Shown one piece after another: positions 2,877-12,443 of a DNA stretch of 33,245 bases. The DNA comes from a virus. The position numbers and the translations under genes are program-made. Numbering within the stretch: the first letter of the stretch is position 1; every line of letters starts with the position of its first letter. Below the pieces are notes generated by a model that was not told the DNA's origin, did no database searches, and saw only the letters and a program-made list of their open reading frames with translations. The stretch spans positions 1-33,245 of the IMG/VR virus record IMGVR_UViG_3300033153_004268; one strand, 5' to 3'.

Positions 2877-5261
2877 ATGAATAATACTCTCAAAGATGCT
2901 TATGAGCAATATCGTTCACAAGGATTTGTACTACAAAAATCCGCACGATATAAAAAACATGCGTTCAGAGAGGGTGCTTATGCTGACCGTGAAAATGAAA
3001 GTTGGATTGATAGTGCTACGGGTTATGTTGGTATTATTCCACCTAATTTAATCATTGTTGATAATGACAAGTATGAATCAGATAATGAGTTTGATAAATT
3101 GCTTGAAGACCTCAACCTAGATTATATACCCGAACCTTTTGCACTCACACCTAGTGGTGGAGAACACTACGCTTTTGAAAATCCAAATCTTGAAATGGTG
3201 ATTGGTAATCACGGTTATAAAGCTGTTGATATTTACGCTGGTTATCAATCAGTAATTCCAATCGTTGGTACGACTGTTAAAAACAAACAAGATATTCTAG
3301 CTTCGTACAAATGGGCTGATGATATTACTGAAAGTTTTATTGTCAATAAATTTGATGAATCAATGTTGGAAGTTCTTAAAATGAGAGTCCGAGCTGAAGC
3401 TACAAATAATCCATACGATGATGACATGGGTTTAAGTGTTGCAATCAAAGCTGAGAATATGCCCGACGAAGAAATCAAATCTTTACTTGAAGCACTACCT
3501 GAGAATTTAGATTATGATACTTGGATAGCTGTTGGTATGTGTATCTATGACAGATACGAAGCTAGTGAGGAAGGATTAGTTCTCTTCAAAGAATTTTCTG
3601 AGAGGTCTTCAGAAAAATACGATGAAGATTTAACTCTCAAAAAATGGAACTCAGGAGCACTAAAACCTACTCAAACAACTTACAAGCGACTACGAAGTAT
3701 ATCAAATGAGTCATCGTTAGGTGGTCTTGAAGATGAGATAGCTAATGCTGATGAGAAAATATTGAAGAAAGTTATTAAAACTATTGCTTCAAAACCTTGT
3801 TTGAATACCCGTGGAAAACTTGATGACGCTGTTCGTGATGAATTAGCTGTTAAGATTAACACTCGTATGAAAGACCTCAAGAAAGATGACCCAACTGTTA
3901 AAGTTATTCAAGCTCGTACGCTTGTGAAAGACTTACAACATGAGGTTAGTGAGGAAGAGATAGAGGTTGGTGGTGTTGACGCTAAAGCCTATCTCAAAGG
4001 TGTTAAGTACGTTGTGCGTATTGGTAAGAAGAAAGTTGAAGACCTCGGTAGTGGTGCAGCAATCACAACACTTACTAATCTTGGTGTACCAAATGCAATG
4101 GCTAAAACCATCGTTGCTAAGGCTACAGTGATTAGTGCTACTGAAATGACAACTGACTATATGTTGGGTAAAGATATTTCCTATAACATCGAACAAGCTG
4201 AGGGTGTTGAGAAACTTCCATTGCTTGTTGGTAGAAAAGACCCATTCCATGATGTTAAAGATTATATCCGTAACGATGAGATTACTAATGACTTCATGCA
4301 AAAGATTTGGAACGGTAAGGCTCAAGACATTGTTGAGTTAATCGCTCTAAGTATTCGTTATGGGGAACAAAAGCTAAATCGACTGATGACAGTTGCACCA
4401 TCTAACACGGGTAAGACTGAAATCTACACAATGCTTGGTTTTCAAAAGATAACCATGCCTCGCTTATTGAACGGGCTTAGAGGTGACAAGGGTATTGGTA
4501 CACAAGTTGTTAACGGTGTTAAAGACAGTGGGTTATTACTAATCGATGAAGCCAATAAAGCTTTAGAAGCTGAGATTAAACACCTTGACAAAGACGTGTA
4601 CGTTGATGAGTTCGGTGCTGGTGGTGGTACGCAGAAGATTAAGTTGCATTTTACAGCTTTAACTTCAACACACAAAACAGCAACACGTAACAATTCAGAT
4701 GAGCTATATAATCGCTTCTTACAAGTGGAATTATTAGAAAATGAGTCCGCATACCATGTTACCCATAGTCCAGTATTTCAAGAAGACAGCGTTTTATACA
4801 CAGAAGTAATTAGTTCATATCTTCGTTATCACTTCAAAAAATGTTTGACTGAAGATGAGTACGATAAGCAATATTTTAATGATTTACAGTCAAGATACAG
4901 ATTACCTCTCAACAACGATTTAGATGAGTTCCTTTACGGTGTCTCCGAACAAGTCATATCGAATCTCAAGCACCTTGCTTCAGATGAGGGTGATATTCTT
5001 CTTAGACAAGGTGAGTATTACGCTAAACGAAAAGGTGATGTAACAGCTATGATTGAGGACTTACTCAAAGAAGTCTCATCAATAGACCACGGTAAATACG
5101 GGGAGAAAATGATGGGTCACTTCGTTGGTAGTCAGGGTAAAACAATCAAAGTTAACGGTAAACCAATCAAGTATTACCCGTTAAATCTAAAGACATACAC
5201 TCAAGATAAAGACCAGCAAATTGTTGATGGGTTTGATGATTTAGAATTAGAAGAGTTTTAG
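2877..5261 (+). CDS. PrimPol-helicase (AEP primase, PriCT-2, SF3-like helicase)
   Basis: 794 residues. The N-terminal bifunctional primase/polymerase domain (about 1-150) has the metal-binding pair VDND (61-64), the SGGEH motif (93-97) and a third acidic residue in VDIY (118). A PriCT-2-like segment follows at about 203-265 (ALPENLDYDTWIAVGM). The C-terminal helicase carries Walker A APSNTGKTE (about 507-515), Walker B LLLIDEAN (about 552-559) and a downstream NRF that may supply an arginine finger. It would unwind DNA and make primers for the phage polymerase. Start from AAAAGGAGAACTAATG. It is first in the replication block, behind the iteron region and structured leader. A perfect hairpin follows its stop. 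Confidence 0.9.
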   Translation: MNNTLKDAYEQYRSQGFVLQKSARYKKHAFREGAYADRENESWIDSATGYVGIIPPNLIIVDNDKYESDNEFDKLLEDLNLDYIPEPFALTPSGGEHYAFENPNLEMVIGNHGYKAVDIYAGYQSVIPIVGTTVKNKQDILASYKWADDITESFIVNKFDESMLEVLKMRVRAEATNNPYDDDMGLSVAIKAENMPDEEIKSLLEALPENLDYDTWIAVGMCIYDRYEASEEGLVLFKEFSERSSEKYDEDLTLKKWNSGALKPTQTTYKRLRSISNESSLGGLEDEIANADEKILKKVIKTIASKPCLNTRGKLDDAVRDELAVKINTRMKDLKKDDPTVKVIQARTLVKDLQHEVSEEEIEVGGVDAKAYLKGVKYVVRIGKKKVEDLGSGAAITTLTNLGVPNAMAKTIVAKATVISATEMTTDYMLGKDISYNIEQAEGVEKLPLLVGRKDPFHDVKDYIRNDEITNDFMQKIWNGKAQDIVELIALSIRYGEQKLNRLMTVAPSNTGKTEIYTMLGFQKITMPRLLNGLRGDKGIGTQVVNGVKDSGLLLIDEANKALEAEIKHLDKDVYVDEFGAGGGTQKIKLHFTALTSTHKTATRNNSDELYNRFLQVELLENESAYHVTHSPVFQEDSVLYTEVISSYLRYHFKKCLTEDEYDKQYFNDLQSRYRLPLNNDLDEFLYGVSEQVISNLKHLASDEGDILLRQGEYYAKRKGDVTAMIEDLLKEVSSIDHGKYGEKMMGHFVGSQGKTIKVNGKPIKYYPLNLKTYTQDKDQQIVDGFDDLELEEF

Positions 5262-5713: not shown

Positions 5714-6214
5714 ATGTTAACCCAAAAAGAATTGAAAGGGAATTTTAAATATTTCCCTGACAGCGGGTTGTTTTTACGACTATCTAAAGACAGTCGTAAA
5801 AGAGTAAAACCTAAATATGTTGGTACGCAAACTGAGTCAGGTTATCTAAGGATTGTTTTTAATGGTAAGTCTTATCAAGCACATAGGTTGGCACACTTAT
5901 ACATGAATGGTAAAATGCCTGAAAATGAAATTGACCACATCAACCATCATCGTTCAGACAATCGTTGGAGTAACTTACGAGAAGTTACTAAGGGTGAAAA
6001 CGCTAAAAATATGACTTTACCTTTGGATAATACGAGTGGGGTTATTGGTGTCCATTGGGCTAAAGATAGAAATAAGTGGAGAGCTGAAATAAAAGTTGAT
6101 GGTGTTAAAATTAACTTGGGTTCATTCACAAAATTCAGTGAAGCGGTTGATATTAGGAAATTAGCCGAAGTTTCTTATGGATTTCACGAAAATCATGGAA
6201 AGGATAAATCATGA
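5714..6214 (+). CDS. HNH homing endonuclease with AP2 domain
   Basis: 166 residues. The HNH part has AHRLAHLYMNG (56-66), the metal-binding IDHINHHRSDNR (73-84) and NLREVT. A C-terminal AP2-type DNA-binding domain follows (about 106-158, SGVIGVHWAKDRNKWRA then LGSFTKFSEAV). This is the standard layout of free-standing phage homing endonucleases, which cut DNA lacking the element and spread by repair. It sits between a hypothetical gene and the DUF2800 nuclease without visibly splitting either. Its end encodes AAAGGATAA, which serves the next gene, and its TGA overlaps that gene's ATG. A decayed relative of its AP2 part lies inside the DNA polymerase gene at 9600-9819. Confidence 0.9.
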   Translation: MLTQKELKGNFKYFPDSGLFLRLSKDSRKRVKPKYVGTQTESGYLRIVFNGKSYQAHRLAHLYMNGKMPENEIDHINHHRSDNRWSNLREVTKGENAKNMTLPLDNTSGVIGVHWAKDRNKWRAEIKVDGVKINLGSFTKFSEAVDIRKLAEVSYGFHENHGKDKS

Positions 6215-8358: not shown

Positions 8359-8526
8359 ATGGATGAAGTTATTTTAACCCATGAAAATTTAAGAATGTTA
8401 CTTGAATTGGTGGAAGATAAACGAAAATTACTTGGTCAAGGTGTTTATCCACCAGCTAAAGTTGACGATAAACTAGAAGACTTATATGAAAAGTTAATGG
8501 ACATAGCTTTTATGGGAGATAAATAA
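8359..8526 (+). CDS. 55-aa hypothetical protein
   Basis: ATG at 8359 behind TAAAGGATATAAA, TAA at 8524-8526 overlapping the polymerase start (TAATG). The product is a small helical, charged protein (LRMLLELVEDKRKLLGQG, DKLEDLYEKLMDIAF). The overlap with the polymerase gene and the good ribosome-binding site argue that it is real. No family is recognised. Confidence 0.65.
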   Translation: MDEVILTHENLRMLLELVEDKRKLLGQGVYPPAKVDDKLEDLYEKLMDIAFMGDK

Positions 8527-9623
8527 TGAAAAAGTTAATCTGCCTAGATATAGAAGTCTTACCCAATTACTTTCTCATAGTCATTAAAGGTTTACAGTCA
8601 GGTAAATATCTTAAGATGGATATGTACGGGGCTGGTAGTAAACTTACTAAGGAACAAAGAAGTAAATTAAATCATATGCTCTCAAGATACACATCGTTTG
8701 GTTTCAACTCTATTAAGTATGACATGCCACAAATTAATTACGCTTTGAGTGGTGCAACATGTCAAGAGCTTTATGAGAACTCTGTAAAGATTATAGAGAA
8801 AAACCAACCTGATTGGATGACTTATCGCAACTTGAATATTGAGCCAAGACATTACGACCATTTTGATGTTAGTGAACCCGCACCAGCTGTAATGATCTCA
8901 TTAAAAAATTATGGTACTCGTGTTGGTTCTAAGAAGCTGCAAGAGTTTTATCTTGATCCACATCTTGCAATATCTGAAGAGCAAAAAGAAGGTCTTATAA
9001 AATATTGTGAGAATGATGTTGATGTTACAGTTGATTTATACAACGCTATTAAAGACCGCATTGAACTACGTGTTGAAATGGGTAAACAATATGGACTTGA
9101 CCTACGTTCTAAATCTGACGCACAAATAGCTGAAGTGGTTATTGCTTCTGAATTAAAGAAGAAAGGTGTAGTTGCTAAAAAACCTGAACTACATTCATCT
9201 TTTAAAGCTCACTACCAAGCACCTGACTATGTGCAGTTCAAAGATAAAAAACTTAATGAGCTAGTTGAGATGTTAGAAGATATTAAATTTGAAATAGCTT
9301 CTAATGGTGCTGTAACTATGCCAAAAATTTTAGCTAATCATAAAATTGTTATTGGTAATACAACATACAAGATGGGTATAGGTGGGCTACACTCACAAGA
9401 GAAGTCTATCAGTGTTGTGAGTGATGAAAATAATGTTATGCGTAACGCTGACTTTGACGCGTATTACCCATTTATCATTTTGAATCAAGGTTTATATCCT
9501 AAACACTTGGGTAAAAAGTTTTTAGATATTTATCGTACAATAGTTGAAACAAGAATATTTGCTAAGAAAGAAAGCCAAAGATTAGGTAAAGAGATTAAGA
9601 TGTTAACATTACTTTTAGATTAA
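8526..9623 (+). CDS. Family A DNA polymerase, N-terminal half (exonuclease and start of palm)
   Basis: 365 residues. The 3'-5' exonuclease domain shows motif I (CLDIEVLPN, D8 and E10), motif II (SFGFNSIKYDMP) and motif III (YCENDVDVT, about 160-168). The polymerase part begins before motif A (ADFDAYYPF, about 308-316) and runs through RTIVETRIFAKKESQRLGKEIK. It then stops after seven residues (MLTLLLD) that align with the HNH-AP2 endonuclease rather than with polymerases. Motif B and motif C are missing here and lie in the next frame (9779-10591). The gene is therefore split by an inserted, decayed endonuclease element. Whether the two chains assemble into an active enzyme is unknown. Start overlaps the preceding stop (TAATG). 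Confidence 0.88.
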   Translation: MKKLICLDIEVLPNYFLIVIKGLQSGKYLKMDMYGAGSKLTKEQRSKLNHMLSRYTSFGFNSIKYDMPQINYALSGATCQELYENSVKIIEKNQPDWMTYRNLNIEPRHYDHFDVSEPAPAVMISLKNYGTRVGSKKLQEFYLDPHLAISEEQKEGLIKYCENDVDVTVDLYNAIKDRIELRVEMGKQYGLDLRSKSDAQIAEVVIASELKKKGVVAKKPELHSSFKAHYQAPDYVQFKDKKLNELVEMLEDIKFEIASNGAVTMPKILANHKIVIGNTTYKMGIGGLHSQEKSISVVSDENNVMRNADFDAYYPFIILNQGLYPKHLGKKFLDIYRTIVETRIFAKKESQRLGKEIKMLTLLLD

Positions 9624-9819
9624 CACTACTGGTCATAAAGGTATAACTAAGCAGAGTGCTAAATTTTTAGTTAGAAAAACCATTGATGGTAAGCGTGTTT
9701 ATTTAGGTAATACAAAAACCTTAGAGGACGCCATAACTTTATATGACAGTGGTATTAAAAAGAAAAAGGATATGAACAATGAAAGAGATGAATCAGGAAG
9801 ATATACTTCAAAAAATTAA
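9600..9819 (+). pseudogene. Decayed HNH/AP2 endonuclease remnant splitting the polymerase gene
   Basis: The frame after polymerase residue K358 reads MLTLLLD, matching NMTLPLD of the intact endonuclease at 5714-6214. After one extra base at 9620/9621 the frame continues NTTGHKGITKQSAKFLVRK, then GKRVYLGNTKTLEDAI, which matches the AP2 domain (NTSGVIGV ... INLGSFTKFSEAV), and ends at TAA 9817-9819. The HNH catalytic part is absent, so only the AP2 tail remains. Removing 9600-9820 (221 bases) would rejoin the polymerase in frame as GKEIK-ELEIKK. It is too short and lacks structure for a group I intron. Confidence 0.8.
9763..9770 (+). promoter_or_regulatory. Ribosome-binding site for the polymerase C-terminal half, within the remnant
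   Basis: AAAAAGGA lies 8 bases before the ATG at 9779 and is part of the endonuclease remnant. It matches the usual ribosome-binding site of this genome and explains how the second polymerase half can be made as a separate chain. A second ATG at 9772 would only give a 15-residue peptide in the remnant frame. Confidence 0.6.
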
Positions 9820-10591
9820 AGAGCTTGAAATAAAGAAAGCCGCTTACGATGTTGAAAATGCTGGTAAGAAAATCCAGATTAATGGGTCATTCGGTAAGTT
9901 TGGTTCAAAATATTCTAAACTCTACTCACCTAATATGTTATTGGCTACAACGATTACGGGTCAACTCACACTGCTTATGTTGATAGAACAAATGGAGTTG
10001 CACAATATTCCCGTTGTATCTGCCAACACGGATGGTCTTGAATATTTTTGTCCTCGTGATAAAATTGATTTAGCTGAGACAATTATATTTGACTTAGAAC
10101 TTATAACTGGTTTCAATATGGAACACGGTGAGTATAAAGCTTTACATGCAAAAGATGTAAATAACTACGTTGCTGTTTATGACGGGTATGTTAAGTCAAA
10201 AGGTATCTATGCTGAGACAACCTTGAGTAAGGGTCGCTCAACCCCTATAGTTTATGAAGCTATTAGAAAGTATTTGCTTGATGGTGCTCGTATTGATTAT
10301 ACGATAGGTGCGTGTATGGATATTAACCAATTTGTATCTGCTAGAACTGTTAAGAGTGGTGGTGTTTACAAGGGTGAGTATCTTGGTAAGATGGTCAGAT
10401 GGTACTACGCTAAAGATGGTGACAAAATTACGTATAGTAATAATGGAAACCTTGTACCAAAAACTGCTGAAGGAAATGGTGTTAGACCAATGATGGATTT
10501 AACTGATGATATACCAAAAGATTTAGATTACGAGTGGTATATAAATGAAGCTGTGTCAAAATTAAAAGACTTGGGAGTTGATTATGAATAA
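9779..10591 (+). CDS. Family A DNA polymerase, C-terminal half (motifs B and C)
   Basis: 270 residues. After a short new N-terminus (MKEMNQEDILQKIK) it carries the region around motif B (KIQINGSFGKFGSKYSKLY, 31-49, then the conserved GQLTLL) and motif C (SANTDGLEYF, 81-90, catalytic D85), followed by the C-terminal palm/thumb region of phage PolA-type enzymes. Together with the frame at 8526-9623 it makes up one ordinary phage family A polymerase of about 620 residues. It is in the +2 frame relative to the first half and has its own ribosome-binding site. The stop overlaps the methyltransferase start. Confidence 0.88.
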   Translation: MKEMNQEDILQKIKELEIKKAAYDVENAGKKIQINGSFGKFGSKYSKLYSPNMLLATTITGQLTLLMLIEQMELHNIPVVSANTDGLEYFCPRDKIDLAETIIFDLELITGFNMEHGEYKALHAKDVNNYVAVYDGYVKSKGIYAETTLSKGRSTPIVYEAIRKYLLDGARIDYTIGACMDINQFVSARTVKSGGVYKGEYLGKMVRWYYAKDGDKITYSNNGNLVPKTAEGNGVRPMMDLTDDIPKDLDYEWYINEAVSKLKDLGVDYE

Positions 10592-11096: not shown

Positions 11097-12443
11097 ATGG
11101 CAATAACAGATAAGCTTAAATATTCAGACTTACATGGGTATCAAAAAAGAGCTATACAATTTGTATTAGATGTTCCAAAATGTGCTTTATTCCTCGATAT
11201 GGGGCTCGGAAAATCAATTAGTGCTTTAACAGCTATAGAAGACTTGATGTATGATAGCTTCCAAGTCAATAAAGTTCTTATTATTGCACCCCTACGTGTT
11301 TGCAACACGGTTTTTGCACAAGAAGCTAAGAAGTGGGAACATACAAAAAACTTAACGTTCTCAAACTTAGCTGGTGGTAAACAAAACATAATGGTTGGCT
11401 TACAACGTAAAGCTGACATCTATATTATCAATAGAGAAAATGTTAAAGCCCTTGTTGAACATCTTGGTAAGAAGTGGGATTTTGATATGGTGGTTGTTGA
11501 TGAGAGTTCTTCATTCAAATCACCATCATCACAACGCTTCAAGGCTCTAAAGAAAATGTTACCTTTTATCAGTCGTATGGTTTTACTTACAGGTACACCA
11601 GCAAGTAATGGTTATGGTGATTTATACTCACAATTCTTTTTACTTGATGGTGGGTTTAGACTTGGTAGAACGCAAACAATGTTTAGAACTAGATACTTTG
11701 ATAAAGACTTCATGGGTTGGACGTATACGCTACGTGATGGTGCTGTTAAGCTCATACAAGACCAAATACAAGACTTAGTGTTATCAATGTCTGCTGATGA
11801 CTATCTTGAGCTTCCTGACTTTGTACCATCTGTATTAGGTAATGAGCTTGAAGGTGAGTTGCTAAGAAAATATCTAAAGTTTAAAAATGATATGATATTG
11901 GCTGTTAAGGGTGATAAAAAGATTACAGCTTTATCTGCTGCAACTTTGAGCAACAAGCTTTTACAGTTTTGTAGTGGGAACATGTATGGTGAAGATGGGA
12001 GCGTTCACCATATACACAATTTAAAGGTGGATACACTTAAGGAGATTATAGATGAAAATCCCAATGACAACATCCTCGTTGCATACAACTACAAGCATGA
12101 GCTTAATGCACTTACAAGCAACTTCCCTAGTGCGGTCGTACTTGACAAGAAGGGTGAAGCGGTCACGGCTTGGAATAAAGGCGAGATTAAGCTTCTTCTC
12201 GCACACCCAGCTAGTGCTGGTCACGGGCTCAACTTACAAGATGGCGGAAGTCTTATTGTATGGTATGGGTTTACATGGTCACTTGAGCTATATCAACAAT
12301 TCAATGCCCGTTTACACCGTCAAGGGCAAACCAAAAAAGTCCGTGCTATGCACATCACTGTGGGAGACATTGAACATGACCTAATGACAGCGTTAGCTAA
12401 GAAGGATATTGTTCAATCTGAATTATTGGAGGTATTAAAATGA
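11097..12443 (+). CDS. SNF2-type DEAD/DEAH helicase
   Basis: 448 residues, full-length for phage SNF2-like proteins. Helicase motifs in order: Walker A (DMGLGKSI, 34-41), motif Ia (LIIAPLRV), Walker B (VVVDESSS, DESS 135-138), motif III (LTGTP, 164-168), motif V (SAGHGLNLQDGG) and motif VI (QQFNARLHRQGQ, about 400-411). It is an ATP-driven dsDNA translocase or remodeller. In phages, proteins of this type appear beside DUF2800, DUF2815, PolA and VRR-NUC genes and probably act in replication or recombination. It starts directly after the methyltransferase stop and ends in an ATGA overlap with the next small gene. Confidence 0.9.
   Translation: MAITDKLKYSDLHGYQKRAIQFVLDVPKCALFLDMGLGKSISALTAIEDLMYDSFQVNKVLIIAPLRVCNTVFAQEAKKWEHTKNLTFSNLAGGKQNIMVGLQRKADIYIINRENVKALVEHLGKKWDFDMVVVDESSSFKSPSSQRFKALKKMLPFISRMVLLTGTPASNGYGDLYSQFFLLDGGFRLGRTQTMFRTRYFDKDFMGWTYTLRDGAVKLIQDQIQDLVLSMSADDYLELPDFVPSVLGNELEGELLRKYLKFKNDMILAVKGDKKITALSAATLSNKLLQFCSGNMYGEDGSVHHIHNLKVDTLKEIIDENPNDNILVAYNYKHELNALTSNFPSAVVLDKKGEAVTAWNKGEIKLLLAHPASAGHGLNLQDGGSLIVWYGFTWSLELYQQFNARLHRQGQTKKVRAMHITVGDIEHDLMTALAKKDIVQSELLEVLK

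Follow-up and report, generated by a model that had tools for sequence, protein, structure and literature searches.

The DNA polymerase gene of an uncultivated phage is interrupted, and its two pieces are most likely translated as separate chains that then assemble, as judged from the sequence. The window, by which we mean the whole stretch of DNA analysed, is the whole of a virus record of 33,245 bases (IMGVR_UViG_3300033153_004268; an uncultivated fragment of ∼33 kb). Its two polymerase ORFs lie in different reading frames, the first with the exonuclease motifs and motif A, the second with motifs B and C, as an earlier sequence-only reading had described them. In profile searches against PHROG 1252 (DNA polymerase, 663 positions), half 1 matches positions 52–405 (E = 1.8e-89) and half 2 matches positions 383–654 (E = 2e-80). 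These matches are far beyond chance, so the halves are pieces of one phage DNA polymerase, and the interruption is confirmed as real. The features are collected in Table 1.

Table 1. Features of the split polymerase gene in the window
Feature	Position	Strand	Description	Basis
Polymerase half 1	8526–9623	+	3'–5' exonuclease domain, palm motif A, first fingers helix; 365 aa	ORF and PHROG 1252 match
Motif A	9450–9470	+	DFDAYYP (extended, DFDAYYPFII); chain 1	Alignment; Asp nearly invariant in 47 rows
Arm 1	9555–9620	+	Tail of the fingers helix at the C-terminus of half 1, beyond conserved Arg343, IFAKKESQRLGKEIKMLTLLLD	Alignment
Endonuclease remnant	9622–9819	+	Decapitated C-terminus of an HNH homing endonuclease, third frame; 65 codons and stop (9817–9819)	PHROG 99, L014 likeness
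Shine-Dalgarno signal of half 2	9766–9770	+	AAGGA, within the endonuclease remnant	Same letters in L014
Overlap	9779–9819	+	41 nt; 3' end of the remnant doubles as first codons of half 2 in another frame	Same overprinting in L014, L015
Polymerase half 2	9779–10591	+	Second fingers helix, motifs B and C, C-terminal palm, thumb; 270 aa	ORF and PHROG 1252 match
Arm 2	9779–9880	+	Extension of the fingers helix at the N-terminus of half 2; 34 aa, preceding NGSFGK	Alignment, predicted helix
Motif B	9869–9898	+	KIQINGSFGK; chain 2	Alignment
Motif C	10025–10036	+	NTDG; chain 2	L118 N432, T433, D434, G435 nearly invariant

The explanation that we favour, and regard as very probable when taken as a whole, is that a cassette entered this gene, spread between phages and left a two-chain polymerase behind when its endonuclease decayed. 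A free-standing HNH homing endonuclease gene would have inserted at the tip of the fingers of a phage family-B DNA polymerase gene, ending chain 1 with a helical tail, whilst the 3' end of the endonuclease gene would supply the ribosome-binding site, the start codon and the first codons of chain 2. Homing would then have moved the cassette between phage lineages, replacing the short fingertip of each recipient. In the window the body of the endonuclease would have been deleted later, the C-terminal tail being kept because the start of half 2 lies there. Two polypeptides would be made and would then assemble, with one helix of the nucleotide-binding fingers contributed by each chain. The sequences themselves show the split, its insertion site at the fingertip, relatives that are intact or still have the endonuclease, start signals in common and purifying selection on both halves; homing activity, separate translation, assembly and enzyme activity are what we infer.

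The split polymerase is of family B (PHROG 1252 type). It had been labelled family A, for which the sole signal is a sub-threshold match to DNA_pol_A_exo1 over 23 exonuclease residues (E = 0.042); a family-A profile match accompanied by polymerase motifs was not found for the window polymerase. The motifs present are those of family B, namely DxxxYYP (A), K...NG.FGK (B) and TDG (C). The Pfam profile DNA_pol_B (PF00136) matches an intact relative, L118, only weakly (E = 6.9e-4, 19 bits, under the curated cut-off of 23), and an AlphaFold model of the same protein (pLDDT 94.8) fold-matches the KOD, Tgo and 9N polymerases with a probability of 1.00 and a TM-score of about 0.5.

The claim that one polymerase is cut between motifs A and B by a decayed endonuclease holds up against its relatives, some of which lack the interruption (L002–L004) and some of which carry it complete (L014 and L015). 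There are six intact close relatives (L002, L003, L004, L008, L010 and L011). In L002, L003 and L004 the polymerase is a single ORF of 599 residues, 83–85% identical to half 1 over residues 1–353 (L004, 85%) and ∼80–86% identical to half 2. At the point where the window polymerase is interrupted, L003 has a short turn, IVETRLKAKAEGNKLVADSLKITINGSFGK. A short fingertip is common to most of the relatives examined and is for that reason likely to be the ancestral state. We also looked for the endonuclease segment as part of an intact polymerase, and it occurs in none of the intact relatives.

A search with the endonuclease remnant gave full-length matches in two contigs, L014 and L015, both inside the same polymerase gene. 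In L014, half 1 (369 aa) is followed by an HNH endonuclease of 211 aa, starting at the ATG at 4566, and by half 2 (270 aa), whose ATG at 5158 falls within the last 44 nt of the endonuclease gene. The order is the same in L015, where a complete HNH endonuclease lies between the halves and half 2 starts with GTG after AGGAGG. The complete endonucleases of the two contigs are 211–224 residues long, and that of L014 matches PHROG 374 with E = 1.5e-52. In all, three split members were found (the window, L014 and L015), one of them with a decayed endonuclease, in collections that were scanned by pattern and in which more distant copies of the cassette can have been missed. A narrow DNA pattern for the junction recovered the L015 contig only, and a pattern scan of bacterial genomes recovered no relative of half 2. 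In cultured phages, the endonuclease matches listed reach <80% coverage of the query and lie chiefly in its N-terminal part, with identities of 38–51%. From 940 phage records that have the polymerase, 60 rows were sampled; every one of these except one matches as a single piece, so that no endonuclease-sized insert is seen in the sampled polymerases.

The interruption had also been described as AP2-like. Since it gives no Pfam AP2 match, this label rests on likeness to the tails of such endonucleases, and it is the likeness to an HNH endonuclease tail that stands: the remnant codons (9622–9816) match PHROG 99, 'HNH endonuclease', with E = 2.7e-9 in a profile search, and are 78% and 61% identical to the tails of the complete endonucleases of L014 and L015, respectively. 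In-frame stops at 9604 and 9616 leave the remnant without a usable upstream start, its first in-frame ATG being ∼15 codons before the end, so it is a decapitated C-terminus. Elsewhere in the window, between two replication-module genes, there is a complete free-standing HNH_3 endonuclease (5714–6214; Pfam HNH_3, E = 1.9e-15) with a weakly AP2-like tail. Its best PHROG is 99, and that of the polymerase endonuclease of L014 is 374.

The start of half 2 lies in the 3' end of the endonuclease gene, which would explain why this tail has survived in the window after loss of the body. The N-terminal peptide predicted from the Met codon at 9779 is MKEMNQEDILQK. Over ∼40 nt, beginning at the Shine-Dalgarno signal and running into the first codons of half 2, the window and L014 are identical. 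The adjoining genes in the window have signals of this same AAGGA type. A signal as good or better precedes 15% of all ATGs in the region, so the signal by itself is weak evidence and its conservation the stronger: half 2 has kept a start and a Shine-Dalgarno signal of its own in all three split members. By prediction, both halves are separately translatable, each with a start codon and a Shine-Dalgarno signal.

The sequence-only reading noted that removal of 9600–9820 would rejoin the halves in frame, and took the bypass in the T4 topoisomerase as the closest parallel. The arithmetic is correct but of little meaning, because some deletion always joins two frames. We consider it very unlikely that ribosomes bypass or shift frame over this segment to give one chain, as in T4 gene 60. 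Such a frame-restoring deletion can be drawn, and the adjoining helicase gene of L002, L014 and L118 contains a candidate short recoding site (see below); however, in L014 and L015 the ribosome would have to cross the whole endonuclease gene, >600 nt, and in place of take-off and landing sites of the gene 60 type around a short skipped segment, these relatives have that full gene and an independent start. A rejoined product is also unnecessary, since both the start codon and the Shine-Dalgarno signal that half 2 needs are present and conserved.

Removal of the interruption from the transcript is likewise very unlikely. Phage polymerase genes often have group I introns, and a self-splicing intron holding the endonuclease remnant would allow a single chain to be made from the spliced transcript; indeed, in L155, which is distantly related, this gene does carry a group I intron, together with a GIY-YIG endonuclease. 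The window gave no Rfam match to such an intron, even at E up to 5, and none was found in L109 and L116, contigs holding copies of the complete cassette. The search is able to detect one, since it found the intron of L155. In L014 there is no room for an intron core, because the endonuclease ORF fills the gap, with 18 nt to spare on the 5' side and a 44-nt overlap into half 2 on the 3' side.

L155 and L159 were considered as further cases of the split and rejected as distant relatives with other interruptions. In L155 (783–3783), motif B is interrupted by the group I intron (Rfam, 121 bits) and its GIY-YIG-type endonuclease, and in L159 a GIY-YIG-like ORF follows motif A. Mobile elements of different kinds hit this polymerase gene.

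The split was previously thought to lie in the palm. Alignment with unsplit relatives had been suggested as the way to locate the junction. Mapped onto the L118 model, in which helices 331–359 and 363–390 make up the fingers and a turn at 360–362 connects them, the split falls at this turn. The first fingers helix closes half 1 and the second opens half 2, which puts the break in the fingers rather than the palm. Chain 1 therefore has motif A and the first fingers helix with the conserved Arg343 and Lys347, whilst chain 2 has motifs B and C together with Lys380 and Asn384 (L118 numbering). In RB69 polymerase, the corresponding fingers residues bind the incoming nucleotide. By analogy, the nucleotide site would be formed jointly by both chains.

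Two arms flank the split. Arm 1 replaces the short fingertip of the intact relatives, and arm 2 is absent from the intact short-finger relatives; both are unlike the short fingertips of the recipients. A model of half 2 of the window on its own starts with a helix at residues 6–30, where the pLDDT is about 60–80. Arm 1 of the window is only weakly like the arms of the others, and its likeness to that of L014 is no more than suggestive (16 of 500 shuffles). Arm 2 resembles that of L015 with a z of about 9, but its first 14 residues share their DNA with conserved endonuclease sequence. When this overprinted part is left out, the likeness is smaller but is still reached in just 2 of 2000 shuffles. 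The L014 arm, likewise trimmed, resembles L118 to a degree reached in none of 2000 shuffles. The amphipathicity of arms 1 and 2 does not exceed that of shuffled sequences, and the pairing of the arms thus rests on homology with the L118 hairpin only. The uninterrupted polymerase of L118 (1954–3813) has a long fingertip of two helices, to which the L014 and L015 arms are homologous; this fingertip may be either the pre-insertion form or a fused leftover. Lengthened fingertips also occur in L135, L121 and L154.

The tails also bear on the idea that a split intein joins the halves after translation, making this a 'fractured gene' like that of polymerase B in phage MIJ3. There, an HNH endonuclease ORF likewise lies between two polymerase-B pieces, accompanied by reported split-intein blocks (PMC6892783); such blocks are absent from the window polymerase. 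Tails of 22–35 and 34 residues are together too short for an intein, and the alignments show no His-Asn followed by Cys, Ser or Thr at the C-terminal junction. We find this explanation scarcely credible.

Both polymerase halves are under purifying selection, with dN/dS values against L002–L004 of 0.09–0.13 for half 1 and 0.11–0.16 for half 2. This matters for the possibility that the polymerase is simply broken, through a defective phage, a recent damaging split in one contig or an assembly artefact such as a false deletion of the endonuclease body. The endonuclease is decayed, and the 33-kb contig is uncultivated and has no read support. Against this, both halves are fully open as well as being under purifying selection, all catalytic motifs are present, the same architecture is found in two other contigs, and the start of half 2 has been kept though the endonuclease was lost. 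A broken polymerase is therefore unlikely, and a working polymerase in two chains remains the reading that we prefer. For the remnant, dN/dS against L014 is 0.14; at non-synonymous sites it differs from L015 by 0.26, a value near the 0.24 obtained for the complete L014 endonuclease gene. Either the body was lost recently or the remnant is constrained, 52 codons being too few to distinguish the two.

Two trees were built, one from the part of half 1 that runs to the conserved Arg343 and the other from the part of half 2 that begins at NGSFGK. The window groups with the intact L002, L003, L004 and L010 (100/100 in the half-1 tree, 93/93 in the half-2 tree), L015 groups with the intact L117 (98/98 and 100/97, respectively), and L014 is placed near L115 and L118. 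The half-1 tree requires three changes of split state, and the half-2 tree no fewer than two. Such scattering of split copies among intact polymerases on both trees implies that the cassette moved or was lost several times. Movement is favoured over repeated loss, because the short fingertip is found in distant relatives as well. This suggests that the split is a cassette which has spread horizontally between phages.

We also put forward, tentatively and at a little under even chances, a stronger form of this idea, in which the mobile unit is a 'splitting cassette'. Endonuclease, fingertip arms and built-in start would together make each homed polymerase a working two-chain enzyme, jointed at the fingers turn, and the split would outlast the endonuclease. 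One gene shows a series of uninterrupted short fingers, uninterrupted long fingers, a split with a complete endonuclease and a split with a dead one. Such a series would allow a direct test of whether a permanent boundary between subunits can be the legacy of a selfish gene.

Split replicative polymerases are already known, and the window case differs in its polymerase family, its HNH endonuclease, the overlapping start, and the occurrence of complete, decayed and empty states in one gene. Nearer parallels than the T4 bypass are the 43A/43B polymerases of Aeromonas phages 44RR and 25 and the nrdA/mobE genes of phage Aeh1. In 44RR and 25, as in the window, a family-B replicative polymerase is in two chains, cut in the fingers. 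The 44RR chains are 498 aa (43A) and 391 aa (43B); in alignments with the RB69 enzyme, 43A extends as far as residue 511 and 43B starts from 519. We take the RB69 fingers to be residues ∼470–570, which places the 44RR split within them. In the annotation of phage 25 an endonuclease gene lies between 43A and 43B, but, unlike in the window, the downstream half starts outside it. These polymerases are T4-like gp43, not PHROG 1252, and the 44RR halves are parted by an untranslated spacer. The phage 25 halves are reported to co-purify with polymerase activity; its endonuclease is of the Seg type (seg43), with an uncertain role in making the split (PMC2988022). The Aeromonas split is apparently independent of that in the window, although it occurs at the same structural place. 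If our explanation is correct, the window polymerase would be a second, apparently independent two-chain family-B replicative polymerase associated with a homing endonuclease and cut between the fingers helices, and the coincidence would point to a permissive cut site in family-B polymerases.

In Aeh1, an HNH homing endonuclease gene (mobE) splits the essential gene nrdA and the two chains form an active enzyme (PMC2988022), but this is a ribonucleotide reductase of a T4-like phage and the endonuclease is complete. In T4 itself, the topoisomerase gene 39/60 is split by the HNH endonuclease gene mobA, now apparently defective (PMC3014915); there the 50-nt bypassed segment is within gene 60, apart from mobA. 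The DNA polymerase of the marine OM43 phages MEP401 and MEP402 is likewise in two genes with a small ORF between them, but this ORF has no known homologues (PMC10580990).

The gene that follows the polymerase, a SNF2-type helicase gene, has a second HNH endonuclease (162 aa) at its 5' end in three contigs (L002:3521–4300, L014:6037–6800 and L118:3869–4640); its intact counterpart in the window is at 11097–12443. The copies of L002 and L118 are 81% and 73% identical to that of L014. After the HNH gene the helicase N-terminus is supplied again, but in a frame that is closed by a stop within the codons of Walker A (ATGGG[A/G]CTT TGAC CT[T/A] GG), at the candidate recoding site ATGGGRCTTTGACCTTGG. 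A 7-nt insert creates CTT TGA C, a sequence similar to the site of the bacterial RF2 +1 frameshift (CUU UGA C). A hop from CTT to CTT/CTA would restore DMGLGKT, and a +1 shift would give DMGLDLGKT. Beyond this point the helicase frame stays open for 353–414 codons. The insert is present in all three members with the helicase HNH endonuclease and in none of the seven checked without it; amongst the viral contigs the exact pattern occurs only in L002, L014 and L118, and it was found in no bacterial genome. The site is a candidate for a recoding site that travels with a homing endonuclease, and T4 gene 60/mobA is a comparable case. Lastly, proteins with short internal repeats are encoded in the window at 1127–1756 and 1–642, with KGYQIVEGDQ and LTSITTDVKFENQGYV units.
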